From Glandiceps talaboti (Eukaryota; Hemichordata; Enteropneusta; Spengelidae), in the NCBI RefSeq assembly GCF_964340395.1, contig NC_135556.1, positions 26,936,562 to 27,000,561 on the forward strand: DNA of 64,000 nt, written 5' to 3'. The notes under the pieces were generated by a model that did no database searches, was not told the origin of the DNA, and saw only the letters and a program-made list of their open reading frames with translations. Positions 5,739 through 39,400 of this stretch are shown here, in pieces. The translations under genes and the position numbers were made by a program. Numbering within the stretch: the stretch's first letter is position 1; the number at the start of each line of letters is the position of its first letter.

Positions 5739-6552
5739 CTTGATATTGACATTGACTTTCAACTATTAAACCACTTTAGACATCAACACACCCTCAAGGC
5801 ATTATTTAAACAACAACGATATGGTTTTAGAGGCTGTTGAAAATAGCCTAGTATCAGAATTTACCTATATACCTATTAAGCGATGACTTGATAAACTCTG
5901 GGAAGAATTACCATACAAGTTTGATATTGACTCTCAACTAACCACTTTAAGCATCAACACGCACTCAACGCATTACGTGGACGACAGCAATATGATTTTA
6001 GAGGCTGTTGATTATAGCCTAGTATCAGAATTTACCTATATACCTATTAAGCGACGACTTGATAAACTCTGTGAGGAATTACCATACAAGTTTGATATTG
6101 ACTCTCAACTAACCACTTTAAGCATCAACACGTACTCAACGCATTACGTGGACGACAGCAATATGATTTTAGAGGCTGTTGAAAATAGCCTAGTATCAGA
6201 ATTTACCTATATACTTATTAAGCGATGACTTGATAAACTCTGGGAAGAATTACCATACAAGTTTGATATTGACTCTCAACCAACCACTTTAAGCATCAAC
6301 ACGCACTCAACGCATTACGTGGACGACAGCAATATGATTTTAGAGGCTGTTGATTATAGCCTAGTATCAGAATTTACCTATATACCTATTAAGCGACGAC
6401 TTGATAAACTCTGGGAAGAATTACCATACAAGTTTGATATTGACTCTCAACCAACCACTTTAGACATCAACACGCACTCAACGCATTACGTGGATGACGA
6501 TGATATGATTTTAGAGGCTGTTGATTATAGCCTAGTATCAGAATTTACCTAA
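5739..6552 (+). repeat. 171-bp tandem repeat, about 4.8 copies, coding-like
   Basis: GACGACAGCAATATGATTTT recurs at 5980, 6151 and 6322, exactly 171 bp apart. Because 171 is 57 codons, one + frame runs through the array. It encodes a repeating unit containing LEAV(D/E)(Y/N)SLVSEFTYI, IKRRLDKLWEELPYKFDID and INTHSTHYVDDSNM. Units alternate between a DYSL/KRRL form and an ENSL form in which TGA replaces the second arginine codon, so the true period is a 342-bp dimer. The first copy (5739-5800) is degenerate. No start, splice sites or gene context were found, so this may be a satellite or a broken tandem-repeat gene. Confidence 0.85.
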
Positions 6553-11723: not shown

Positions 11724-11879
11724 AAAATTATCATTATAGTTGTAGCTATATTGTTACATCTATGGGGGGAGGGGGGCGGCTTTACATGTTACAACAAAAC
11801 TGTACAGTCATAATGAAAGTTGATGGTGAACAGCTGTGGAGCACTCAAACCTTGTCACATTATAACCAGTAGTGGCCTT

Positions 11880-13903
11880 TTGATTCAATGTATAAATCTC
11901 ACTGGAGACCTAAAATTACCATTTGATTCATGTATAAATCTCACTGGAGACCTATAATTACCATTTGATTCATGTATAAATCTCACTGGAGACCTATAAT
12001 TACCATTTGATTCAATGTATAAATCTCACTGGAGACCTATAATTACCATTTGATTCAATGTATAAATCTCACTGGAGACCTATAATTACCATTTGATTCA
12101 ATGTATAAATCTCACTGGAGACCTATAATTACTATTTGATTCAATGTATAAATCTCACTGGAGACCTATAATTACCATTTGATTCAATGTATAAATCTCA
12201 CTGGAGACCTATAATTACCATTTGATTCAATGTATAAATCTCACTGGAGACCTATAATTACCATTTGATTCAATGTATAAATCTCACTGGAGACCTATAA
12301 TTACTATTTGATTCAATGTATAAATCTCACTGGAGACCTATAATTACCATTTGATTCAATGTATAAATCTCACTGGAGACCTATAATTACCATTTGATTC
12401 AATGTATAAATCTCACTGGAGACCTATAATTACCATTTGATTCAATGTATAAATCTCACTGGAGACCTATAATTACCATTTGATTCAATGTATAAATCTC
12501 ACTGGAGACCTATAATTACCATTTGATTCAATGTATAAATCTCACTGGAGACCTATAATTACTATTTGGTTCAATGTATAAATCTCACTGGAGACCTATA
12601 ATTACCATTTGATTCAATGTATAAATCTCACTGGAGACCTATAATTACCATTTGATTCAATGTATAAATCTCACTGGAGACCTATAATTACCATTTGATT
12701 CAATGCATAAATCTCACTGGAGACCTATAATTACCATTTGATTCAATGCATAAATCTCACTGGAGACCTATAATTACCATTTGATTCAATGTATAAATCT
12801 CACTGGAGACCTATAATTACCATTTGATTCAATGCATAAATCTCACTGGAGACCTATAATTACCATTTGATTCAATGTATAAATCTCACTGGAGACCTAT
12901 AATTACCATTTGATTCAATGTATAAATCTCACTGGAGACCTATAATTACCATTTGATTCAATGCATAAATCTCACTGGAGACCTATAATTACCATTTGAT
13001 TCAATGTATAAATCTCACTGGAGACCTATAATTACCATTTGATTCAATGTATAAATCTCACTGGAGACCTATAATTACCATTTGATTCATGTATAAATCT
13101 CACTGGAGACCTATAATTACCATTTGATTCAATGTATAAATCTCACTGGAGACCTATAATTACCATTTGATTCAATGTATAAATCTCACTGGAGACCTAT
13201 AATTACTATTTGATTCATGTATAAATCTCACTGGAGACCTATAATTACCATTTGATTCAATGTATAAATCTCACTGGAGACCTATAATTACCATTTGATT
13301 CATGTATAAATCTCACTGGAGACCTATAATTACCATTTGATTCAATGTATAAATCTCACTGGAGACCTATAATTACCATTTGATTCATGTATAAATCTCA
13401 CTGGAGACCTATAATTACCATTTGATTCATGTATAAATCTCACTGGAGACCTATAATTACCATTTGATTCAATGTATAAATCTCACTGGAGACCTATAAT
13501 TACCATTTGATTCAATGTATAAATCTCACTGGAGACCTATAATTACCATTTGATTCAATGTATAAATCTCACTGGAGACCTATAATTACCATTTGATTCA
13601 ATGCATAAATCTCACTGGAGACCTATAATTACCATTTGATTCAATGTATAAATCTCACTGGAGACCTATAATTACCATTTGATTCATGTATAAATCTCAC
13701 TGGAGACCTATAATTACCATTTGATTCAATGTATAAATCTCACTGGAGACCTATAATTACCATTTGATTCAATGTATAAATCTCACTGGAGACCTATAAT
13801 TACCATTTGATTCAATGTATAAATCTCACTGGAGACCTAAAATTACCATTTGATTCAATGTATAAATCTCACTGGAGACCTATAATTACCATTTGATTCA
13901 TGT
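11880..13903. repeat. 43-bp satellite array, about 47 copies, 2.0 kb
   Basis: Near-identical units read GATTCAATGTATAAATCTCA, CTGGAGACCTATAATTACCA, TTT. Length variants of 42 bp (GATTCATG without the second A) and single-base variants (CCATTT/CTATTT, TGTATAAAT/TGCATAAAT) recur in several places, which suggests block duplication. Homogeneity is very high, so the array is probably young. Copy number may be compressed in the assembly. Confidence 0.95.
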
Positions 13904-15566
13904 AGTATTTTGTGTCATCAATGTCAAACAGAAGACTAAATCTGTAATGTAAATAGAGTCCTAAAAAACAAGTAAATCAATCATTTAGAAACATTGAAAA
14001 GTCTCATTTAAACAAACATTTATTTTATATGTTTGTGTATTATGAGAACAAGACTGTAATTTGTACCAAACCACTATAGTAGAAATGACAAACTTGTTTA
14101 ACGAATAGGAAAGAAAAATAAATAGAAAAAACCTACTTGTACAAAAACAAGCTATTAATTTACTAAAAGTTTGAGTTGATTCAGATTAACAGATTCCTTG
14201 AGTTATTCAAAAGTTTTTTGTAGCAAAAAAATATGTTTCTTTCTGATAACATGGTTACAGACAATAGGCTATTATAGGGTAGGTAGGTTGGAATTTTATT
14301 GTATTTTACTTTAGATTTTTAACAATTACTTTGACCCCATGATAAGATATTCTTCGGTCACAATACTTCCGGATGAAAGTTTGATGAGTTGTAAAAGAAG
14401 TAATTGAAGACAATTCTAAGTTAAGTAGACAAAGATGTTATGCAGACTGTACTCTTATAGACTAAAAAAGACCTGGTTTCTCTCTGGAATACAATTCTTT
14501 GACACGGAAATAGAAGTAAATTGTTACCATTTTACCGTTTTGTATGCAAAAATGTTTAGGGTCAGGGCTTTATCGGAAACACTATTTTTTATTTAGCCTA
14601 TCAGTATTGTGCCATCATGTCATTGATAAATGCCAATTCATATTTCTACTAGTTTTCCTCAGTTTATGACATGTAACAGATAATTTTGTATTTATAACAG
14701 TTAGAATTGTTTCAATGTTTGTTGTACTCAAAGTGACATGTACATACCTCAATCTGATATGTGTACAGTGATATCAGAATGGCTAGATAGATTTATGTCA
14801 GCATTTTTGCGTTGCCAGTCTCGATGATGTTTTTTTGTTGAAACTTGTAAGTGTTACAAAATGGGTACATTGTGCAATCGTGTATGCAATAGATTGTACT
14901 TTGAGCAATGTTCTGTGTCACTTTATTGAGAATGTTGGTCAGAATTTTGTTTTGCCCCGAATCCATGTTAAGTACAAAGTATGTGAGACGAGATTTGAAT
15001 TGATTTATGGTGTCTTTGTAAAATGTTTTGTTGAAGAGAACACAGTTTTACTACATTTCACGGACCAGCGTCAACTTTAGTCTGACTTAAGTTAAAGAAA
15101 ACATTATAAGCTTGTACTTGGGCCACATTTAGATTTGATTTTTCTAATGATATGCTACATGTACTTAGACCCAACTTAAAATTGAGAACCAAAATGGAAG
15201 GGCAGTCACTGAGAATATTGTGTCATGAGTCGGCCCAATGCATTCACACTTAAAGCTGGCTTAAAATTATACTAGTCCCGACTTTTAGACATCCTGCAGA
15301 CACTAGAAACTACTCTGACTAGACTCTGGGCCAGTTTAAAGTATTTACACACTTGAATAGTAATGACAGTAATGTAGGATGTGATCAGAGTATATCCGGT
15401 TCATTCAGATGTCAGTGTGTGTGTTTACTATGTGCAAAGGTGACTCCTGTATGATTGTCTCAATCTCCACTTCATGGCCAACTAGCAGCCACCTGTTTGA
15501 GCAATCATGATCTCATCTCTGACCCGATTAATTCAAGTTCTGTTCTTTGTGTCTTTGTCTATACAG
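13904..15566. other. No exon recognised upstream of the GRXCR-like exons
   Basis: This is probably intron of the GRXCR-like gene, since that gene's penultimate exon starts at 15567. The 81-codon open frame at 14835-15080 has no motif and no clear splice context. Confidence 0.35.
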
Positions 15567-16617
15567 GATTTAGAGAAATTGGAGGAATTAAATGAAACTG
15601 GTGAATTGAGGAAAATATTAAGTCGATTTGAGGTAAGTTTGGATTTTGATTGTTTTTGTACATTTTGAATATTTTATAAGGGTATGAAATTAGCAGAGCA
15701 TTGAACTTTTGATGGATGGATGGATGGATGGATGGATGGATGGATGGATGGATGGATGGTTGGTTGGTTGGTTGGATGGATGGATGGTTGGTTGGTTGGT
15801 TGGTTGGTTGGTTGTATGGTTGTATGGAGGAATGGATGGATGGATGGATGGTTGGCTGGCTGATTGGTTGGTTGGTTGTATGGATGGATGGATGGATGGT
15901 TGGTTGGTTGGTTGGTTGGTTGGTTGGTTGGTTGGTTGGTTGGTTGGTTGATTGATTGGTTGGTTGGTTGGTTGGATGGTTGGTTGGTTGTATGGATGGA
16001 TGGATGGTTGGTTGGTTGGTTGGTTGGTTGGTTGGTTGGTTGGTTGGTTGGTTGGATGGATGGTTGGCTGGCTGGTTGGTTGTATGGATGGTTGGTTGGT
16101 TGTATGGATGGATGGATGGTTGGTTGGTTGGTTGGTTGGTTGGTTGGTTGGTTGGATGGATGGTTGGTTGGTTGGTTGGTTGATTGATTGGTTGGTTGGT
16201 TGGTTGGTTGGTTGGTTGGTTGGTTGGATGGATTGTGAATGGGATAGACAAATGACATTTATTTACATGTTTACACAATTAAGTGGAATGGGAAAGGGAA
16301 GAAGTTGAACAACAGAATAACAGGATAGTTGAAATAAACAATGTGGGCAATCTTAGAAATCCTGTTTCAGAACATTTGTTTTGAATGATCTAATCTTGGT
16401 TGAAATCAATGTAAATTTCATTTACATTTTTCAGAAATGTGTCCCAACATCACAGTGTACAGCATGTGGAGGATATCGTTATGTGCCATGTGCTTGGTGT
16501 AATGGCAGTAAGAAATCATCACATAGGAACAATTTTACATATGACTACCAAGCACTGAAGTGTACAAAATGTGACGAGAATGGACTACAAATCTGTCCTG
16601 AATGTGTAGATGAATAA
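15567..16617 (+). CDS. GRXCR1: GRXCR1-like cysteine-rich glutaredoxin-related protein, last two exons (partial)
   Basis: Exons 15567-15632 (phase 0 on both sides, after TATACAG, before GTAAGT) and 16435-16617 (after TTTTTCAG, TAA stop). The first exon encodes [20 protein letters not shown], the end of the glutaredoxin-like fold. The second holds four CxxC pairs (CTAC, CAWC, CTKC, CPEC) in a DnaJ-like cysteine-rich tail with the family block [18 protein letters not shown]. Human GRXCR1 ends with ALKCTACNENGLQ followed by Cys-rich sequence, and the intron falls at the same place, between the glutaredoxin fold and the Cys-rich tail. In vertebrates the protein works in actin-rich stereocilia of hair cells. 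The upstream exons, including the glutaredoxin core, were not found in this window. GRXCR2 or an invertebrate co-orthologue remains possible. Confidence 0.88.
15709..16230. repeat. (GGTT/GGAT)n tetranucleotide array in the GRXCR-like intron
   Basis: About 520 bp of GGTT mixed with GGAT, GGCT and TGTA tetramers lies between the last two exons. It creates long open frames on both strands (Trp/Gly/Leu-rich on +, Asn/Gln/Pro/Thr-rich on -), which are by-products of the repeat and not genes. Confidence 0.95.
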
Positions 16618-23914: not shown

Positions 23915-26900
23915 CTAGATTGGCAATTTGAAGGGTAACACACCAACAACTGTTTCTTTCAGATTGAAGCCTGCATATTTAAGCAGAAGACATTGTGTGA
24001 TACCCAGTGAACTTTGAACTAATAACGCTTTCAACATCTGGACACTTCTCTTGAATGGTGGTACTCTGTAAATGTACAAACAGTGAAACATCCATTTTTT
24101 TAACATCTATGAAATGTACAAACACAGAATTCAAAGTTCATTTCATACAATTGAACAATCCAACATTCCTGTCAATGAAAGACTGGATTGTTTGGAGGAA
24201 AAAGTAATAGCAGTGTCTCTGTTGTGCAGCTATAATCATCCTGTGATCAAGATGGTGTAAATATTGGAATTAGAACACATCAAGATCATGAAACCTTAGC
24301 AGAGATCTACTGTGAAACCATAGACCCTCCACCCACAGGATACGCAACCGCGGTAAACATTAAAGGATCTCTAAATGTTTATTGTACAATGTTTGTTTGC
24401 ATACATTAAGCTAAATAAGCATTCCTTGTCCGTTTCCGAGTTGTTCACACTCTCTGTGACTCAGTGATAGTTGCTCGCTATCCGACATGTTTTTGACTAA
24501 ATTTTCCAACCATTTCGAAGTTTACAACTGGTTGAAGACCCCAACAAGATATATAGTATTTTAGGTAAATGCATACATAGTCTTTCATGTATTTTGTTGT
24601 TCTATGGCATGAAAAGAAGCATTGATAGCGTAACTCTGCCAGAGTAGTAAGAGCATTGCAAACTATTTACCTTTTCTCTGCATCTTCAATGTAAGCATAG
24701 AAATACTCATTCCTTGCATGTAGATATACTAAACCAACAATAGATGCTGGTACTAGAGATAAAAACAGATACATTTGTAGACAATATTTGACATTGTTTG
24801 CACATTAACGATATAAAAACTTCACAATGATAGGTGGTATGATGACTAGAAAGACTAGCATCATTTGACACTATGGCATCCTAGTGAAATAATCTACATA
24901 ACCATCACTCTTGTCATATGTATGTTTATTCGTTCAAAAAGTTCCAATTTTTTTTTATATAACCATTAAAGGGAACACCATCCCATGAAATAAAGTCATT
25001 TTTATGAATTTACTTCTGGAGAATCATTTCATTATTTTACATCACCTAAATTACAAACGATTTCAGAGAAACATCAATTTGAAAATGTGCTTGATTTGAC
25101 TATTTTTGCTGTGGGCCACATTGCCTCATGGGAATCAGCAGAAATGTATATACAATAGGTGAACAATGAATATTCATGACTTCTAGGTGCTTATTACCTT
25201 CAATGAAAATGGCAAAATTTCAAAGAAAAAAGTTTAAGTTGAAAAAGAGAAAGAAATGAACAAAGGTAAACATGTTTCAAATTGAAAGAGTCAATGTCAA
25301 AGGTCAATGTCAAAGGTCAATATAAGTTTATATAATGTTGTGTGTTTATGATATTGAACGAAATACATACTTGGGTTGAAGAAGAGTGCATCCATCCACA
25401 GGGCAACCAGGAACATTGGCATAAATTCCACAGTGTTCTGTCTGTTATAATTCAATCAAATACTGTCAGTTACAAATCTCTCATTATAGAGATTCTCAAG
25501 CTATGTAATCACTTTTTTAATACCATAAAAATAAACACCTTGCTACAGTCATCTACAGATTACCAAATCACATACACATTAAGATGAAAATTTAAAACAA
25601 ATGGTTTATTTATTTATTTAGACTCAGAGTTCCTCACTTCTGCACTCATCAGATGGCTAAACTGATATTGCACTCATCAGATGGCTAAACTGATGTAAAC
25701 TATAAGACTAACTTCAGTTCTACTAGTCATATCTACACAAACACACACACTTCTGTACATGTTACACCCAATCCGTGAAACTGCCCAATTCATGAAATGT
25801 GCATGCAACTTTGCCCAGTTCATGAAATGGTCTACCTTATGCAAATGAGAGTATAGATTACAATATAAAAGGGCGAAATTAAATTTTTGGGGCAAGAGTT
25901 TTGAACTGGGGTGTTGATTATCGAACTCTATTAAAAACACAAGCTACACTGAATTATAATACAATAAGAATTGTGAAATGATGAGTTTGTAAATACATGA
26001 TAATAAAGTTGTTTGATTGATATTTATTTTGTGTGTGTCCTATAAAAGATGCTCATTTCATGTACTGGGCATATCTTACCATACCCACTTCATAACCTGG
26101 GCAACACGATTGACTATTTCATGAACTGGGCAAAGTTACCTAGTAGACCCATTTCATGAATTGGGCAATTTCACAGATTGGGTGTAACATATGTATATGT
26201 ATACACATATCAGTGTGTACAAAATGTATACTTCAATATTTTTATTAATATTTTTCTTGGTTCCGGCAAGGAAAATATGAGTGACCTATGGGATGATCGC
26301 ACAATGTCGCACAAGCTCAACAAACAAACATTGTTCGTTTAGGTCCAAACCTCCTCCCCTTTCCCCTAAACAAACATTCACAAGTGCGACATCAAACATT
26401 TATATATGATGTAAACTATGATGAAAACTGTAGTGGTCACATCACTACGATCGATTGTAAACATATTGAAATATTACCAGAAATCCAGCACCATATCTCA
26501 TGTTAGAACTTGAAGTAAACTTTTTATCAACTTATCAACATCTCAGTAGCAAATACAGAAACTGTTTACCATTGAAGGTGTGAAAGTTTTCGAAATTTGG
26601 TTAAAAGCATGAAAATGAAGTTCAGAAATCGCATTGACACCAGACCCCCTTCCCTAAATGAACAAAGTTCACTTATTGAGCTTTTGTGATCGTCCCTAAG
26701 GGGCCTTGTCACTATGAGCCACTAGATGAGTAGTGACGAATATTTTCCAGTTGAATGAAATGACATATTGGGAATGATATGATACCTCCTCAAGAATAAT
26801 TTATTAAAAATCAGGAAAAATAATCAAGGTGACTTGGAACATTTTGACTCATATTTCTAGCATCGCAAAACTAGTGACATAGACACAGCTTGTCATGATG

Positions 26901-28730
26901 TAGAATGACCAGGGTATATACTCCATATTTTCTGTTCAAAGATAATTGGCTTGAGTATGGTATAAATGATTCTACATATCATACTGCACACATATTCATA
27001 AGTTTTACGACAAAAACAAAAACTACTGTAGATACATACTGTGCACGAATGGCTCTTTCAAACATTGGTTCTCCTGTTATTGCTGGTGGGGTGATTTTGT
27101 GTTTCTGTCTCTGCTTACCTACAGCCAGGGCAAAATTACCTGTCAATTTGTAAAAGTTATATGAAATGAATGTTAATATGATATGCAGTGAGTGGAACTC
27201 TATTAGTAGAAGTCTTTTTAAAAAAAACACACATTAAGAAGGATATTATGGGATGGTGTACATGTATTGGAACTATACTTTTTACCACAGGCACTCGAAT
27301 CAATCTGTATGATTTTTTTAAATGTATTAATATACATTTATTTTTTTTAAATCATTTTTTACCAAGAGACTGAGCTAAGTGGTTTCAGTGTCACACATCA
27401 GTAAATTGTAGAGATTACCATTTGATGCATTTATGGTGACAAAGTGATCACAGATCGACAGTAAACAATGGTGATGCCATGGTGACTACAGAATATATCC
27501 TGAGCCATGGAAATTTTTTATGATATACACGTGAATTGAATTGTATTACATATATAGGTGGAGTACCTTTACACACTATTTTACATGTACTATAGACTAT
27601 CTACTTGTGTTTGACTACCTCAAAAATGATGGATTGATTTATACTTTTATGGCATATAAACAATATTGCTCATAGTACTCATGGACTGTTTTAATAGATA
27701 AAAGTTTACTCAGTACAAAGTTGAACTATAGAGTGTCACAATGGAATACACTACTCACAAACCATTGGTAATTATTAACAGAATGTCTGTAATTCAATGA
27801 CCAGCTTTGGTACACACTTTTTTTAACCGTTTCCTTGCTTAGCAATATAGTAATTACAACGACAAATAAAGATGCATACACACACTGTAAAGACACAGGT
27901 ACTCGAATCAATCTGTACGATTTTTAAAAAAAATAAATATGTATGGTGTCTTATTTACCATACATTTTTTTTTTAAACCATACAGATTGATTCAAGTACC
28001 TTTGGTAATAGACAAAGTACTGTACATTTGGCTTGAAATTATCAATCAATGATTGAATGAAACACAACTTTGTTACATGTAATACATTGTCAACTTGCGG
28101 ACATGCACACATTCTCGACCGGTAAACACCCCACCCCACCCCCACCACCACCACCACCACCCCCACCCCAGCCACCACCACCACCACCACCACCACCACC
28201 ACCACCACCACCACCACCACCACCACCATCCTTGACTTCCATGCATGAACACTGAAACTCAGACCACCAAGAGACTTAAGTCTGGGTAGTATTTCAGGGG
28301 ATGATGGTTCACTATGCAAATGCATAATCTCTAGAGACAAGCCAAATCCACAGTACATCTTGATGAGTATCTTGTGGGCTGTGATGATGCCGTCTCGTGG
28401 CAGAAAATTTATCATTTGTCTGCCAATTTTCTTTACATATTCCTACACACATCTAGTTCATAGACCGTGAGTATCAAGTAATTGCCAAATCATGTCTCAG
28501 GCTCATTGGAACCCATACGCGACTGTGGTCGACAGCTGTGTACTGCATTGAGGTCATCGTCAGTGTGTGATGTACAAATAAGGCAGTGATATGCAGGAAC
28601 CGCAAAACTGTGGCGACACATTTTTAAGATCACACCGTCTTTCATCGTAACGTTACTTACCAAGTTGATAGGCTGCCAACAGGGACACTATTGCTGGGAA
28701 AACGATATTTTCTAACTCGATAGCAGTCAT
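23915..28730 (-). CDS. MGST2: MAPEG membrane enzyme, microsomal glutathione S-transferase 2 / LTC4 synthase-like
   Basis: Five exons: 28661-28730 (ATG at 28730), 27040-27139, 25371-25441, 24671-24752 and 23915-24065 (TAG). All junctions are GT-AG with phases 1, 2, 1, 2, giving 157 aa against about 150 for the family. Four hydrophobic segments fit the MAPEG four-helix bundle in ER or nuclear membrane. Family blocks are [31 protein letters not shown] and [20 protein letters not shown]. By a constant offset of +4 to human LTC4 synthase, glutathione-site residues R51, N55, E58, R90, Y93 and Y97 correspond to R55, N59, E62, R94, Y97 and Y101; catalytic R104 corresponds to R108. R31 is Gln35. The family conjugates glutathione to lipid epoxides such as LTA4. 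MGST2 versus LTC4S cannot be separated here; NxVEF resembles MGST2 more. Confidence 0.92.
24317..24335. repeat. CCATAGACCCTCCAC element end, in an MGST2-like intron
   Basis: The same word occurs at about 53721 and, as a perfect palindrome, at 57317-57352. It looks like the terminus of a small inverted-repeat transposon family. Confidence 0.45.
26268..26755. mobile_element. Putative inverted-repeat element in MGST2-like intron 2
   Basis: The left arm has GGAAAATATGAGTGAC, GATGATCGCAC and AAGCTCAACAA; the right arm has the inverse order TTATTGAGCTTTTGTGATCG, GTCACTAT and GAATATTTTCC. The arms are imperfect. There is no coding capacity, and no clear target-site duplication was found. Confidence 0.45.
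26736..26975. repeat. Dispersed repeat B, copy 1
   Basis: Shares TTGAATGAAATGACATATTG, GAATGACCAGGGTATATACT and CCATATTTTCTGTTCAAAGA with copies at 32262-32531 and (3' part only) 29580-29675. It overlaps the right end of the inverted-repeat element beside it, so the two may be parts of one larger repeat. Confidence 0.6.
27288..27372. repeat. Palindromic MITE family C, diverged copy
   Basis: It starts with GCACTCGAATCAATCTGTAT and then poly-T, ATTAATATACAT and poly-T again. It shares its left end with the better copy at 27896-28005. Confidence 0.5.
27896..28005. mobile_element. Palindromic MITE family C in MGST2-like intron 1
   Basis: AGGTACTCGAATCAATCTGT on the left and ACAGATTGATTCAAGTACCT on the right form near-perfect inverted ends around an A/T-rich centre that contains TATGTATGGTGTC and ACCATACA. 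It is about 110 bp long. Confidence 0.7.
28129..28229. repeat. (CCA)n / (CCCCA)n microsatellite
   Basis: About 100 bp of CCACCA triplets in MGST2-like intron 1. It gives poly-Pro, poly-His and poly-Val open frames that are repeat artefacts. Confidence 0.95.
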
Positions 28731-29204
28731 CTTGCTATGGATTAATGGGCACTGGATGATATAAAATAGTCAGTCACCCCGGGTCAGTCACACGCTGCGC
28801 TGATGTGTAAAGAATCAATGGAATATGGTGCAGATCTAATGTCAATCATGTCAATTTGCACCGCCCATTATTAACCTTTAACCCCAGGCCCTGGCAACTC
28901 AGGTGAAACTTAGCATCAGATACACAGGTACGAATCGAATACGGATACACAGTATAGATATCTATTTTAGGCACCTAGTAACATTTCGTATTGTTCAAAG
29001 CTCTTCAAAAAAAATAAAGTTGTCTATCTTTATCATAATGTACAACAGAAATCCTGCAAGTGATTACACTAAACTACTAAATAGACTGTTGAAAGTTACT
29101 TCTGCCCTTGGTGCTCAATATCCCATTAAAGATATACCTAATTATTTCTCGTACTATCATATTTAGTTTGATGACTACTTAAGTTATGTAATATATTAGA
29201 TTAA
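28731..29204. other. Upstream region of the MGST2-like gene
   Basis: The stretch before the MGST2-like ATG. I see no clear TATA box in a fixed place. The sequence CACGCTGCGC near 28790 keeps CpG dinucleotides. No other gene was recognised. Confidence 0.35.
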
Positions 29205-30401: not shown

Positions 30402-33400
30402 TCATGATACAATACTGATATCAATACAACTCTTCTGTAGAGTCACTTTCATTTCTACGCTATCTCCTTTGACAACATTGACATTATCCTCTAGAATGAT
30501 AGCTGACTGTTGCCAATGTGTTACATCATCTAATGTTGATATTATGGTGTCTTCATCCATGTGTAAATCATACCAAATTAGAACAGCATGGAGAGTACCA
30601 GTTGTAGATACAGGTACTGTTAGACATGTCTTAGTATCAAGTGGGTGTGAATCAAGGTCAAGGTCAGCTGTCCAGTCTATGTCCATGATATGGAATGATG
30701 GTGTTAGGCTGTGGTGTGGCAAAGTGGATAAGTTGATATCCATATGAGTGCTGGTCTGAAAGAGAAAATAAGACATTCAGAAAAGATTACAAGAGAATGG
30801 TAAGTATAAATACAAAGTGTCTACTGATATGCAGCAATCATCAGCTGAACTTTTGGCTTCTGAAAGTAATCTGAAAGGAGAGGTTAGTTGTGACAATTTG
30901 GATGTGTATTTGTCAAATTTTCACACACTCTATTAAATTGACATGGAATAATTGAATCGGAGTTGCTTGATTTTAACTTGTATATCACTTCTAATGGGAA
31001 ACTTGTTGCCTTGGTCTTATTTTAACAGTTCCCATGGAAATGGACTTCAGACAAGTGAATAGCAAACTTAAGAATCTGACTCCCTAAAGCTTTCACAGTA
31101 GCCATTTTTAGAGACACAGAATGCCATTCACTGAAACCAACTAAACAAATGTACTCAGATGTGTTAAATTTGAAATATAAATACACCACATCAAAATGTA
31201 CAGACAGCCTTCCACTATGTTAGACTAAAGTCAATATTGACTGCCTTCCATGATGACCATTGCATTTGTGTCATTCCATAGCACCAGCCTTCCATTATAA
31301 CTTCCTAAAGGTTTCTTGTATACACTGTTATGTAAAATGCTTACCTTGTACATATTGATGAATGGTGCTATGTGTAAGCCAAGGGTGTTGTCATCATTCA
31401 TAACCCGACTTTCTTCCAGCAATGTGTCCGACTCTATACAAATACCATGTATGCTGACTCCACATGGAATGATACAGGCATTGGGATGTAGATAGCTGGC
31501 TCTATAACACACAAATGATCAACTTTATGTTACATGTACTTACTTCTAAGGAAGCAAAATAATTTGAATATGTGATTTTGATATAATATCTTTCAACATC
31601 AGCTAGAATCAATACTAAACTTTTGAGTAGCTTTAACAAAATATTTCAATTTATACCATTTTCTAGTATTTTTTCTCAAGCTACATAAAAGGTTTAGTCA
31701 ACAGAAAAAAAGTAAATACATGGCCGGGAGGGTGGGGGTGGGTGGCAAACTGCAACTATTCTAAAAATAGACATCTAAACAAAGGCACTGGGCACTTGCC
31801 CATGTGAGGGCGCTAATGCAACTGAATATAGTAGGTTCAGGTAATTGGAACCAACATTTTACTTTCCACAGCCTTATAAATGTTAGCCCAAGGAATGGAA
31901 ATCATGTTTTCCCCTCCCCCTCCCTCCCTCCTCCAATGTTATCATATTCACATACATTATCAAAATTCTGAGAGAATATTTGGATTGCTAGTAGTAATGC
32001 TTTGTACTGGTGTCATTGTTTGATTGAGAGACACAAAATACTGGGCTGATAATTAATAAAGCAAATGTAACAGTATACCTTACACTTGATATGGAAACTA
32101 TCAACAATTATGGCAAGCAGGGAAAATGCTTTAGTTTGGTGGTATGAGTCCAAGATATTTAAAGCAAAGATATTTACACATGTCCAATCCTTAATGTCCA
32201 ACTTTTAGACATTATTCCCAAAATTTTAGATATTCTCCTCCCAGTATTTGTCTACATTCAAAGACTAGTAGTGACTTCATATCATGAGTATTTTCAGCTG
32301 AATGAAGGAACATATTGAGCAATAGTATGATCATACCTACAGGTGCAAGTATAATTTATGCAAAAATAAATAACAACAATGGACATTTTAAAGATTTTAA
32401 CTCGTATTTCATGCACCACAGAACAAACATAGACATATACTATTGTGACATAGAACAACCAGGATATAAATCCCATATTTTCTGTTTTCAAATGTGTACA
32501 ACAATAGCCTGCATGTGCTATATAATAACTTGTGTATCATTTATACTGACCTTGCGATAGCTACATCTTCTACAATCTGTTGTTTTATACTACCAGTCCT
32601 TTCCACTACATCAACAATCAATAGATCCACCTTATCATTGGTTTCTATGTCAGTGTATTCAATCTTATCATCAGCTATATCATTACACTCACATAGACAC
32701 TGTAAAATAGCCTGGCAGTCTAATGATTGGTTAGGATACAACACTTTACTACATCCAGCTTGGGCAGCATACATGCCACCAAGAGAGAAATTATGGCTAA
32801 TATCCATGGCAACAAAGTTTTGACTCGGTGTCTCTTCTTCTTTTGTACCACACTGGGATTTCTCTTGTTTGTCTTTACATCTCTTAGCAACACATCTGGA
32901 TATGGCATTTTGCATGGCAGTTTGATATGTTGAGTCATTTATTGCTGAGATTTCTTCACATGATAGAGTGAAATGCTGAGTTATATCTTTCTTAGAGTCA
33001 GCAACTTGATTTGATTCAGGGGTGATGTTAGCGCATTCTGTGGTATTAGTCATGTCTTTATCACATGGCAAAGTATCAGTCCTGCCTTTATCACATGGCA
33101 CTGTATCAGTCCTGTCTTTATCAGATGGCATGGCATCAGCCCTGTCTTTATCACATGGCACTGTATCAGTCCTGTCTTTATCAGATGGCATGACATCAGC
33201 CCTGTCTTTATCACATGGCACTGCATCAGTTCTATCTTTACGAGATGGCATGGCATCAGTCATGTCTTTATCACATGGCACTGTATCAGTTCTATCTTTA
33301 CCAGATGACATGGTATTAGTCATGTCTTTATCAGATGACACTGTATCAGTCATGTCTTTATCAGATGATACTGTATCGGTCCTGTATTTATAAGATGGCA

Positions 33401-36400
33401 CTGTACCAGTCCTGTCTTTATCACATGGCACTGTATCAGTGCTGTCTTTATCTGATGGCACTGTATCAGTCCTGTCTTTATCTGATGTTACTCTACCAGT
33501 CCTGTCTGTATCACATGGCATGGCATCAGTCCTTACTTTATCAAATGGCACTGTATCAGTACCATCTTTATCTGATGGCACTGTATCAGTGCTGTCTTTA
33601 TCTGATGGCACTGTATCAGTGCTGTCTTTATCTGATGGCACTGTATCAGTCCTGTCTTTATCTGATGGTACTGTACCAGTCCTGTCTTTATCACATGGCA
33701 TGGCATCAGTCCTTACTTTATCAAATGGCACTGTATCAGTCCCTTCTTTATCACATGGCATACTGCCAGTGCCAACTTGTTGTACATCATCCACTCTGCT
33801 TACATCAAAGGATAGGTGGTTTTGCTGGCAAGTTACTTTTACTGTAACTTTGTTTCCTGTCTCTACAGTAGCACTACCTGAATATAAACAAGTGAAGTAT
33901 TCCAGGTGAAGAGAATGTAAATATTCTTAACTCACAACAACAAGTTTTTAACTAGAAACCCAAGACTATCAAGCTCACTAGGATAATCCTCCCTATAGAA
34001 ACCTAGACTTCAAAACTCACCATGGTACTGCTCCCGAAACCCTACAATTCCAAACTCACCATGACACACCTCCATATAGAAACCCTAGAATTCCAAACTC
34101 ACCACGATACACCTCCATATAGAAACCCTACAATTCCAAACTCACCATGACACACATCCATATAGAAACCCTAGAATTCCAAACTCACCATGACACACAT
34201 CCATATAGAAACCCTAGAATTCCAAACTCACCATGACACACCTCCATATAGAAACCCTACAATTCCAAACTCACCATGACACACATCCATATAGAAACCC
34301 TACAATTCCAAACTCACCACGATACACCTCCATATAGAAACCCTACAATTCCAAACTCACCACGATACACCTCCATATAGAAACCCTACAATTCCAAACT
34401 CACCATGACACACCTCCATATAGAAACTCTAGAATTCCAAACTCACCATGACACACATCCATATAGAAACCCTAGAATTCAAAACTCACCATGACACACA
34501 TCCATATAGAAACCCTAGAATTCCAAACTCACCATGACACACCTCCATATAGAAACCCTACAATTCCAAACTCACCATGATACTGCTAATATATAGAAAC
34601 CCTAGAAATCCAAACTCACCATGACACACCTCCATATAGAAACTCTAGAATTCCAAACTCACCATGACACACATCCATATAGAAACCCTACAATTCCAAA
34701 CTCACCATGATACTGCTAATATATAGAAACCCTAGAATTCCAAACTCACCATGACACACATCCATATAGAAACCCTACAATTCCAAACTCACCATGATAA
34801 TGCTAATATATAGAAACTCTAGAATTCCAAACTCACCATGACACACCTCCATATAGAAACCCTACAATTCCAAACTCACCATGACACACATCCATATAGA
34901 AACCCTAGAATTCCAAACTCACCATGATACTGCTAATATATAGAAACCCTAGAATTCCAAACTCACCATGACACACATCCATATAGAAACCCTACAATTC
35001 CAAACTCACCATGATACTGCTAATATATAGAAACTCTAGAATTCCAAACTCACCATGACACTGCTCCATATAGATAGGATATACAGCTTGTTCCCAGCAA
35101 CTTTGACTTTGTGGTGATGTACTCAGATGTGTATGTTGATCCAGCTGTAAAGTAAACCAACACACAACTGCATCAAGCTGACCTGTCTTCACAGTTTGTA
35201 GATGATAGATCTTTGGTGGAGTGTTTGGCGTTGAGGAAAGCATCACCTGGAAAGTGTTAATTAATACACGAAAGTGAATATTTTTGGCAGTGAAATGACA
35301 TGCTAACAAAATCAGAGAAGATGTATTCTACAGCTTGATTTCCTGATTCTTACAGCTTTATGACATTCTTGTAAGATTATGTATCTGACGATGATTGTTG
35401 TAGTTGTTTGAAAAATTATAAAAGGTGTCGATGATAAAAAATATTAAGTTCTTTAACTATGAAATTGACTTTTTGAATAATAGTTATTTTAAGCATTTGA
35501 ACCTAGCTACAGTATGACATTGTTAATACACTATGATAACTTTTGGTACACAGAGTGATGATATCATTTTGCAGCTTTGAACAACCACTATCTTTAGGAA
35601 ATATTTCTAAGCTGAAATAAATTTTCTTCTACATTTTCTTAGACAGCTGAAGAATAGTATGGTGAAATATTAACAACTAACCTGTGGGTGGTTGAAATCT
35701 AATGTTATAACTTGGAAAACTTCAGTCAATGCAGTGTAACCACCTTTCAATCTGTTAAGTACTTCACTGGTATATGGGTCTTCAGTTAGACTAACATCAT
35801 TGAGGTTGGTGGCCATACAATTGCTAATAATTTCACTCTTGCTTAAATCTAAATTACCAATCTTCTTCTGTATCACTCTAGTAGAATGAAATATATGTAT
35901 CACAGAATAGGAGGATTATTGTTATAGAAAATAATATTAAAGGAATCAAACAAAATTACATTGAAAATTATTTTTTCTTGAATTGCTGAATAATAATATG
36001 ACTTCTATGTATAGTATGCAAATAATAAGTTATAATAAAAATACCTAGTTTTTGTTTTCTAGTTTTACATTAAATTGATTCACTCTGAAAAGTCATTTCT
36101 ATTCAATCAATAAATCAATCAATCAAATTTCTACAGCACCAATTTCCAGAGAAATGTTCTGTTTAGTAGCACTGAATGGCTAAAGCACACCATATGCTTT
36201 GGTGAACAAATAAGTCTTCAGTTTTGTTTTGAAACGATCCAGGCTGGAGGCTTGGTGAATGTCAAGTGGCAAAGAGTTTCATTCCTATAAACGTATTTAT
36301 GACTTTTTAGCCTATAAGGACATCGTTTATCTTTGAAAAATTGGAAATAAAGGTGACACAAAATTGGTGGTGTTCAGGAAATGTTTACCTGTGTTGCTGC

Positions 36401-39400
36401 CTTAATTCCTTTGATTCAATGATTTGGGCAAAGACTGTTGCACTTCTTGGAATGACTTGAGTATTCTGAATTACAGTAAAAGGATCAAGATGAAAGTTTT
36501 GGCAGAATGAAACCCTATACTGTGGGAGAGCCAGTATGGCATACTCTGAGAAATTGCACAAGTGCTTGCAATGTTCTCTGAGGTTGTACTTTCATGAGTG
36601 AGGTGAGTGAAAATATAGTAGAAAACACACTACAAGCATATTTGCAAATAACATGAATATACACTCTAGCACTACGACCTCATGGAGTTCTGGATCTGTT
36701 ATTCACATAACAATTATTTCAAAGAATTTCATGAACAATCATGACATGCTCTCACACTCATGTTTTTGGTATTCAATAAATTTCCAAATTCATTTGGACG
36801 AATAAAGATTATTACATGTTTTACATTATGGCATTGCAGTTCTATGGAAAGCCACAGATTTCTTAAGTCCACAGAAGACACCTGTGGCGAGATAGGTTTT
36901 GGTATCCTACAATTCTACAACCAACACAACATACCTTGTTATCTAAAAGATGTTTCCAGGCATGTTGCATTGTCTCCATTATGCCTTCTCCTAGCAACCC
37001 AGCATCCATTGTCTCCGTGACAACCAAGGACACCCTACAAAGTTAAGGTAAGCTGTATCATAAAATCAGCTAGTTTCACTGGATTTACGAAATGTATTTT
37101 CACTAATCTTTTGGGTTCATCCTAAAAATTTGTATTGGTGAATAGTACATACCTTTCAGGGAGATGTGTTGGAACAATAATATCAGTGGATTTGATGTTT
37201 AACAGGTGGATTTTATCTGACATGTGATTGGTGACTAGTACATCTTTGGCAACTCCAAACATAGTTTTTGACATTTCACATCCATAGACACGTTTAGCTC
37301 CAGCCTTGACAGCAAACATACTGTAAAAGTTTGTAATATACAAGGTTACCATATTGATTATGATTTACTATATATATTTCAAAAATGTCGACATTTTGTT
37401 AAATTTACATAAAATTTGGTTTGCACAAAAGTTAACAATATTCTGTAAAAATTGTTCACTCTTAAAAATATACTAGTATCTGACTTGACGTGGCATTTTA
37501 CTAGAATAATACATTAGACCACATCCAAGTAAAGAATTCAAACAAAAATATGGGATGTATTGTCTGGTCATGCTATACCATGAAGACATGCATCTATGTC
37601 ACCATGACAACTACACCATTACAACATGCATCTACACCATTGTTTTGCAGTGCTTGAAATAACGTCAAAACAATCAAATCCGTCATTATTTTCACCAATT
37701 TATCACAAATTGAGCTTGTAAAGGTATAATCATATCAATAGCTGTCTTCATACAGCCAGAAAATATTTTCAACAAAAGGGTTCGTCATTTCTCATTTTTG
37801 ACTCAAAGCGATAGTACAGTGTATGCCCCATTATGTTCCTCATGTGAACAAAGAAACGTAACAGTTATGAATAACAGACACCACATCAAAACATTGACAC
37901 ACTTCAGGATAAGCTGCCATAGTCTTGCAATTGAGAATTAAGGAATGCTACAAACAACTCACAACTCCAATTGAAAAGAGACTATGTACAAATTGTAATA
38001 CAGTAGATGACGAAGAACATTATTTCATACATTGCAAACTAAATATACAAAGTAAAGAGATAAATTATTTACTGTCATGTATAATATTAATTCAGATTTC
38101 AGTAGTATACTGTATAGAAAAGAAAGAGCAATTTAAATCTATAATGCAATCAAAACAAAAAGAGATTATAATTGCTCTCTGTAGGTATCTAAACTCATGT
38201 CAAAATATTTAATCAACAAATCGTAGTGTTCTTTAATACACTTATGTACCAAAATAGAATTCTTGTCAATTTTCGATACGGTTGTAATAAAGCTATATCT
38301 AATCTAATCTAATCCAATCTAATCTAACCTGATCTAATCTAATCTATCTAATTTAATCTAATCTCATCTAATCTAATCCAATCTATAATTGTAAACTATT
38401 GAACTACTATTGATTTTACTGATGGTAGTCTAGTTCCTATACAACACATTACGCGGACTACTACCATCATCTCCACTCCATCTCTGATGTAGTCTAGTTC
38501 CTATCACATTACGATTACTACCATCATCTCCATTCCATCTCTGCTGAGTGGAGATGATGGTAGTAATTGTAACGCGTCGTATAGTAATGAGATTATTGCT
38601 GATGTAGAATACAAAGACTACACTGTACCTTAATATTCCAGTTCCTGTACCAATATCTAGGACAGTATCAAAACCATTCTGTACAGCTTTCTCTATGGCT
38701 ACCTTATAGGCTTGATTTCTGACTTTATCGTTCAACATCTTGAAATGCCATCTTTCAACTAATGCTGATGAGACATTGTTCAGGTTGTCTTTAGCCAATA
38801 CAAAGTCTGGATTGATTGTCAAAGCTTTCCTAAACCATACTGCTGCTTCATCTTTGAATCCTAACCTGGTTGACAAATTACAAAGGGACAAACAGTTAAC
38901 ATTGATTTTATTATCATGCTGGAGGTGGGGATCGATAACATTATTAAAGGCACGACTGCCTGTGCCTGGGACCCTATTTTGCATAGGACTGACTGTATGT
39001 TTGGAGGTGGAGAACTTGTGATGACCCACTGGCAAGTAATCACCAAAATATAAACATTCCCTATCTGGGTTTTTCACATGCAAATGCCACATATTTGAAT
39101 AATCCTGAGTGACACACAATCTAAACAGCTGTTTGCAGGGGAATTTGTCTCATTTTGAAAGTTTTTTTTCATTCTATGAAACAAACAGATTGATTTTCAA
39201 CTAATTTGTGTATCAAGTTACCATCCTACGACATTCACAAACAATTTGTACATGATACAGTTTGTATATTTAACAGGTTCTATTGGGAGAACAATGCTAA
39301 TGCACTGAAATGGTGTCTGTATATGAAAGATTAATAAAATAAAAACAAAAAAATACATGACCTGTGTGTTTCTCGGAGCACAGAAAAATGTTGAAAACAA

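Follow-up and report, generated by a model that had tools for sequence, protein, structure and literature searches.

The exon 7 donor of PRMT9 heads a minisatellite that repeats it about 25 times in the acorn worm Glandiceps talaboti

In the hemichordate Glandiceps talaboti (Enteropneusta, Spengelidae), the 5′ splice site at the end of PRMT9 coding exon 7 is only the first of a long series, with 24 further copies of the same donor lying in the intron behind it. Which of these donors is used, and how did such an array arise and persist? We analysed a window of 64,000 nt (contig NC_135556.1, assembly GCF_964340395.1), within which all positions below are counted. Very probably, the array is a mirage-type minisatellite (a tandem duplication of an exon-intron boundary) that grew from the native exon 7/intron 7 boundary and is tolerated, with the first donor winning by exon definition.

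The host gene is PRMT9, and the sequence-only reading of this locus named both the gene and its exon and intron 7 correctly, counting coding exons. Our gene model runs on the minus strand from 39997 to 30402 and joins 10 coding exons into an open frame of 1,047 residues; all nine introns are GT-AG and their phases are compatible. In a protein database search, the best match to this model was an NCBI-sourced PRMT9-like protein from G. talaboti (P0001), with 99% identity over 100%; of the 120 matches listed (613 in all), no other carried a Glandiceps name. P0001, a gene model taken from a database and perhaps derived from this very assembly, joins exon 7 to exon 8 at the same boundary as the 10-exon model, that of the first donor (donor 1). 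Both Pfam (first 481 residues) and solved structures (first 497 residues; PRMT9 entries 6pdm and 7rbq, and chain 8rbk, named MGC151858 protein) point to PRMT9 with an N-terminal TPR segment. The PRMT methyltransferase half was found by Pfam in those 481 residues and the orthologues bear the name PRMT9, while the second methyltransferase-like half is seen by alignment with full-length orthologues only.

Two other features of this gene were observed. P0001 carries 8 additional residues (VCCVGCRI; 36911-36935) after exon 4, which come from a donor ATT/GTAGGA (3.1 bits; the slash marks the cut) located 24 nt past AAG/GTATGT (9.8 bits), and this is either a true alternative donor or a model error. 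Additionally, a 30-bp minisatellite (33043-33760, 23.9 copies by TRF) lies within coding exon 8 and encodes peptide repeats that sit between both methyltransferase-like halves, in Glandiceps only among the 11 aligned proteins.

The intron 7 array begins about 20 nt inside coding exon 7 and fills most of the 1,176-bp intron (Table 1). As the sequence-only reading had proposed, a 43-bp satellite repeats a 5′ splice site about 25 times, and its first unit consists of the last ~20 exonic bases together with the authentic donor. Indeed, unit 1 straddles the coding boundary, with the TRF edge at 35074 and the end of exon 7 at 35054. Other parts of that description needed adjustment. Its extent of 33990-35073 does hold array, although TRF places the limits slightly wider. 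The unit has a period of 43 by TRF but is not strictly 43 bp: of the 26 spacings between GTGAG sites, the first 23 are 43 or 44 nt and the last three are 39, 42 and 43 nt. Likewise, (C)ATG/GTGAGT was said to recur in each unit, which is the case for 22 of 25 donors.

Table 1. Features of the donor array and of the surrounding part of PRMT9 (positions within the window; a slash marks the exon-intron cut).
Feature	Position	Strand	Details
Tandem array	33953..35074	-	TRF: period 43, 26.1 copies, 87% matches
PRMT9 coding exon 7	35054..35246	-	193 nt, ends ...CAT G; 10-exon model and P0001
Exonic half of unit 1	35054-35073	-	Last 20 nt of exon 7; YMEQCH and first base of glycine codon
Authentic 5′ splice site (donor 1), ATG/GTGAGT	35048..35056	-	G of GT at 35053; boundary GTCATG/gtgagtttgg (35054/35053)
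24 further G/GTGAGT donors	34015..35012	-	G of GT in the next two rows
Further donors, first 12	35009, 34966, 34922, 34879, 34836, 34792, 34749, 34705, 34662, 34619, 34575, 34532	-	G of GT
Further donors, last 12	34489, 34446, 34403, 34360, 34317, 34274, 34231, 34188, 34145, 34102, 34059, 34020	-	G of GT
TAGGGT (hnRNP A1-type motif)	34039..34994	-	20 of units 1-24; motif from PMC9634572 (in excerpt)
Decayed last unit	33956..33998	-	CCTA/GTGAGCTT at 33978, within TRF range; 12 differences from exon unit
Intron 7	33878..35053	-	1,176 bp, phase 1
Coding exon 8	32551..33877	-	Acceptor tttatattcag/GTAGTG; 10-exon model

In total, 27 GTGAG sites were counted on the minus strand between 33860 and 35130. 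Twenty-five of these, including the authentic one, are G/GTGAGT donors, with ATG before the cut in 22 (CATG/GTGAGTTT) and GTG in the other three (CGTG/GTGAGTTT, at 34360, 34317 and 34102). The remaining two sites are degenerate; one belongs to the decayed last unit and the other, TGTT/GTGAGTTA at 33935, lies beyond the TRF range. Donor 1 scores 10.0 bits on a generic donor matrix, and 21 other donors match it exactly from -4 to +8, giving 22 identical in all. The 1.27-kb array stretch has 25 GGTGAGT on its sense strand and the remaining window only four (two on each strand), so that the enrichment of donors in the array is beyond doubt.

The units are not uniform. Against the array consensus of 43 positions, the exon unit shows 3 differences, compared with 12 in far unit 25 and 11 in far unit 26. 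By an ungapped count, 18 of units 2-24 differ from the consensus at 0-3 positions and five, all of type A, at 11-13. Within units 1-24, eight of the nine columns of the donor 9-mer are invariant (hypergeometric P 0.038, with linked columns treated as independent), and all of the circular nine-column windows with at least eight invariant columns (8 of 43) overlap the donor. This invariance could be a hint of selection for working copies. However, many of the variable exonic-side columns have one divergent unit type as their source, and because the variable columns are clustered in this way, we do not count the invariance of the donor core as evidence of function. Donor 1 is also not set apart by local RNA folding (unpaired probability of its 9-mer 0.022, within the range of 0.003-0.053 for the 26 donors), and thus no special structure was seen there. 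Additionally, an acceptor-like TTTCTATATATTAGCAG/TATC (6.99 bits) occurs in four units (34582-35016), at a density not above background (4 in 1.15 kb, compared with 4.21 per kb per strand). This TTTCTATATATTAGCAG stands 7 nt ahead of the donor in four of the five type A units, and the array therefore also offers pseudo-exons.

To describe what each donor would do to the mRNA, we computed the joins of all 26 downstream GTGAG donors to exon 8. Every one of them leads to a premature stop, after residue 454 with donor 2 and after residue 455 with the other 25; retention of intron 7 likewise gives a stop after 455. It had been suggested that later donors shift the frame and soon meet stops. The stops are there in all 26 cases, but eight of the 26 donors keep the frame and the stop simply comes first. 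A transcript with such a premature stop and exon junctions downstream is an expected target of nonsense-mediated decay (NMD). When the truncated 455-residue product was used as a query (candidates of about 250-797 aa, of which the 7,995 sharing most words were scored), no such Glandiceps isoform was found; the search returned 64 proteins at E<=1e-100, all with at most 55% identity. The use of donor 1 by P0001 and the failure to find a truncated isoform in this search would fit regular splicing, and we infer that donor 1 is probably the donor used in vivo.

Exon definition offers an explanation for why the first donor should win. According to excerpts of PMC9225289, exon definition governs the recognition of splice sites whose flanking introns exceed about 250 nt, and among near-equal competing donors the upstream one is then preferred. 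In minigenes that had 365-nt introns and a pair of identical strong donors, splicing went exclusively to the upstream donor, whereas larger constructs in which both donors had been weakened mostly skipped the exon (same excerpts). Exon 7 of PRMT9 is 193 nt long and lies between introns of 435 and 1,176 nt, and should thus be recognised across the exon. By analogy, the preference for the upstream site would alone select donor 1 among identical copies; being nearest to the exon 7 acceptor, donor 1 would win despite the 21 exact matches that follow it. The array would be tolerated since, under exon definition, the donor closest to the upstream acceptor is chosen. The minigenes resemble the PRMT9 locus in having identical donors in series after one acceptor under exon definition, but they hold two donors in a human-type construct (PMC9225289, in excerpt) and the PRMT9 array holds 25 in a native gene. 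The rule itself was derived in human cells, and the host here is an acorn worm. Three options had been left open for the cell, namely to prefer the first donor, to tolerate noise or to use the array for regulation. Preference for the first donor is the best supported, by P0001 and by the two-donor minigenes (excerpts of PMC9225289); regulation by the array is possible but less likely.

A regulatory device would work as follows: the 24 decoy donors recruit U1, the UAGGGU copies recruit an hnRNP A1-like repressor, and the balance between them sets the share of PRMT9 mRNA that is destroyed through the premature stop, so that array length tunes dosage. We regard this as unlikely. It would draw on the uniform outcome of the later donors, all 26 of which give an NMD-like arrangement of stop and downstream exon junctions, and on a donor core somewhat more invariant than expected. 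It would also draw on TAGGG, which is dense in intron 7 (21 in 1,176 nt; the remaining PRMT9 introns, 5,276 nt in total, have 4, and both strands of the window elsewhere, 125,648 nt, have 49) and is absent from the authentic unit, where TAGAG replaces TAGGGT as it does in units 6, 10 and 15 (the authentic unit reads UAGAGU). In excerpts of PMC9634572, UAGGGA/U is reported as a high-affinity hnRNP A1 site and an excess of hnRNP A1 over SRSF1 favours distal donors. However, the motif was copied along with the unit; its count is thus one event rather than twenty and is inflated by the copying. Moreover, the authentic unit has a one in six chance of being among the 4 of 24 without the motif, and the Glandiceps protein uses donor 1, with no truncated isoform among the candidates scored. 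Decoy donors silenced through UAGGGU are a possible second layer. That intron 7 is a self-made splicing rheostat, in which a strong donor and a UAGGGU silencer are paired so that nearly each copy would add one more braked decoy, strikes us as decidedly improbable. Were it true, the proportion of productive to NMD-bound PRMT9 mRNA would be set by allele length, and mirages would count as a form of regulation that recurs in non-vertebrate deuterostomes, not as junk.

Growth from the native boundary, the origin that we favour, has to be weighed against an invading satellite and against mis-assembly. In the native case, some 20 nt from the end of PRMT9 exon 7 and the adjoining ~23 nt of intron 7 would together have formed a 43-bp segment that was duplicated in tandem, possibly via TCTA at both segment ends; this tetranucleotide opens the exonic half and recurs in the intron past the array. 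Unequal exchange or slippage would then have expanded the array to ~25 copies. Multi-unit blocks were probably copied too, as the order of unit types by eye in units 2-12, read away from the exon, is A B A B C A B A B C A and suggests the copying of five-unit blocks. The exon unit has AGCAGT, as do type A and far unit 25, together with the TATATGG of types B and C, a mix of features that would be expected of the ancestral form. The alternative, in which a satellite that existed beforehand spread into the end of the exon and brought the donor and the last exonic codons with it, in place of the ancestral ones, appears very improbable, even though many of the array copies agree with the authentic donor and its flanks between -4 and +14. 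The unit-encoded residues speak on both sides. The conserved block CWEQAVYP ends just upstream of unit 1, and what follows is a variable loop with little identity to orthologues; among the six residues encoded wholly in the unit, a single one (C) is identical in Saccoglossus. This loop aligns without gaps to Saccoglossus and Ptychodera (IYMEQCHG against VHPSHCKP in Saccoglossus), whereas against the remaining eight aligned orthologues gaps are needed or the length differs. Since the loop is gapless against two other hemichordates, its frame and length look native, and the exonic half is likely descended from the ancestral exon, a descent that is supported less strongly because this half encodes a variable loop. 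Against an invader also stand the ancestor-like exon unit, which shares features with several unit types, the mere four GGTGAGT of the remaining window, and the other period-43 array of the window (11879-13904), whose unit is by eye unrelated.

An assembly artefact, with the repeat expanded or invented by mis-assembly, is the least probable of these origins, and we give it hardly any weight. Tandem arrays are a classical site of assembly errors and one assembly was examined, but the array combines several distinct unit types in a non-trivial sequence and has decayed units at its far end, both of which argue against such an error, as do the further minisatellites in the window; the copy number itself could be wrong. 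Only the exonic half of unit 1 is coding; all else in the array is intronic, and the protein is thus unchanged while donor 1 is used. For an array grown from the native boundary, we infer neutrality along with this mode of origin and growth: it is probably tolerated rather than selected.

Other features of the window were noted. The second 43-bp array (47.3 copies by TRF) holds, on the minus strand, 43 donor-like sites of at least 5.5 bits, of which the six printed are all ATG/GTAATT. By TRF, this array overlaps by 15 nt a possible exon that ends at 13890, with a good acceptor at 13960 (6.4 bits) and a donor of 6.97 bits. A second mirage here is possible, but we leave it as an unproven candidate: 35 of the 202 donors of the window scoring at least 7 bits have a like open, acceptor-bounded stretch upstream. 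Pfam gave nothing above the cut-off in three frames of 13700-15700, and the minus strand of 1-29990 yielded no more than disordered PT repeats and a single DUF match that stayed under the cut-off; a protein search in the region of this array (candidates of about 220-700 aa) considered two candidates and found no match. A 171-bp array at 5769-6551 has a consensus unit that is, by eye, an open 57-residue repeat on the plus strand. Lastly, exons predicted on the minus strand at 24671-28751 bear a possible resemblance to a MAPEG-family protein (leukotriene C4 synthase-like), a family that Pfam did not report there in the frames scanned.

Splice sites embedded in a minisatellite had been called rarely described, which is right only in part. 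The kind already has a name: "mirages", tandem duplications of exon-intron boundaries, were named by Canestro et al. 2002 for amphioxus Adh3 (as cited in PMC3087553, in excerpt), and the amphioxus reports cited for them date from 2001-2002 on and cover Adh3, globin, PGBD5 and troponin C genes (excerpts of PMC3087553 and PMC3902484). Among the open-licence papers that our literature searches listed (up to 20 per listing), there was no hemichordate mirage. From its sequence, the PRMT9 array looks like a further case of this kind, now in another phylum, and the amphioxus curiosity would extend to an acorn worm. Should mirages prove frequent in hemichordates as well as cephalochordates, one could test for a cause common to both, be it mutational or related to splicing. 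The array is also a clean natural experiment: a single native intron holds 22 competing donors that are identical from -4 to +8 (25 if the three GTG forms are included) and differ chiefly in their distance from the two acceptors; the series would offer a gauge of the proximity rule of exon definition in a non-model animal.

Similar to the PRMT9 array, the amphioxus mirages have a unit that spans a real exon-intron boundary and many copies that carry a splice signal (PMC3087553, in excerpt), and the unit of the Adh3 mirage is 10-72 bp long (same excerpt). They occur in a cephalochordate, a difference of historical range and not of mechanism, whereas the 25 donors of PRMT9 are found in a hemichordate. 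Of the amphioxus globin genes, BflGb6 has 6 or 3 copies of 150-160 bp with a 3′ splice site, in contrast to the 5′ splice site of PRMT9, and in BflGb9 the 3′ boundary of exon 2 is present in a 157-bp duplicate, unlike an array of 25 donors (PMC3087553, in excerpt). In lancelet PGBD5 and troponin C, tandem repeats include splice sites as they do in PRMT9, but the PGBD5 repeats are imperfect units of 60 bp and 108 bp, the latter in three copies, compared with units of 43/44 bp here (PMC3902484, in excerpt). Intron gain by tandem duplication of a splice or proto-splice site (PMC2891723; model in PMC3087553; both in excerpt) likewise multiplies a segment bearing a splice site, yet it creates a new intron, whereas the PRMT9 copies stay inside the existing intron 7. 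Splicing and length instability were examined in amphioxus mirages (PMC3087553, in excerpt), and the PRMT9 array is known from the sequence of one haplotype. As for the outcome in amphioxus, the Adh3 evidence and RT-PCR of globins suggested that splicing is left undisturbed by mirages (PMC3087553), and the mirages of Adh and TnC are said not to generate aberrant mRNAs (PMC3902484).
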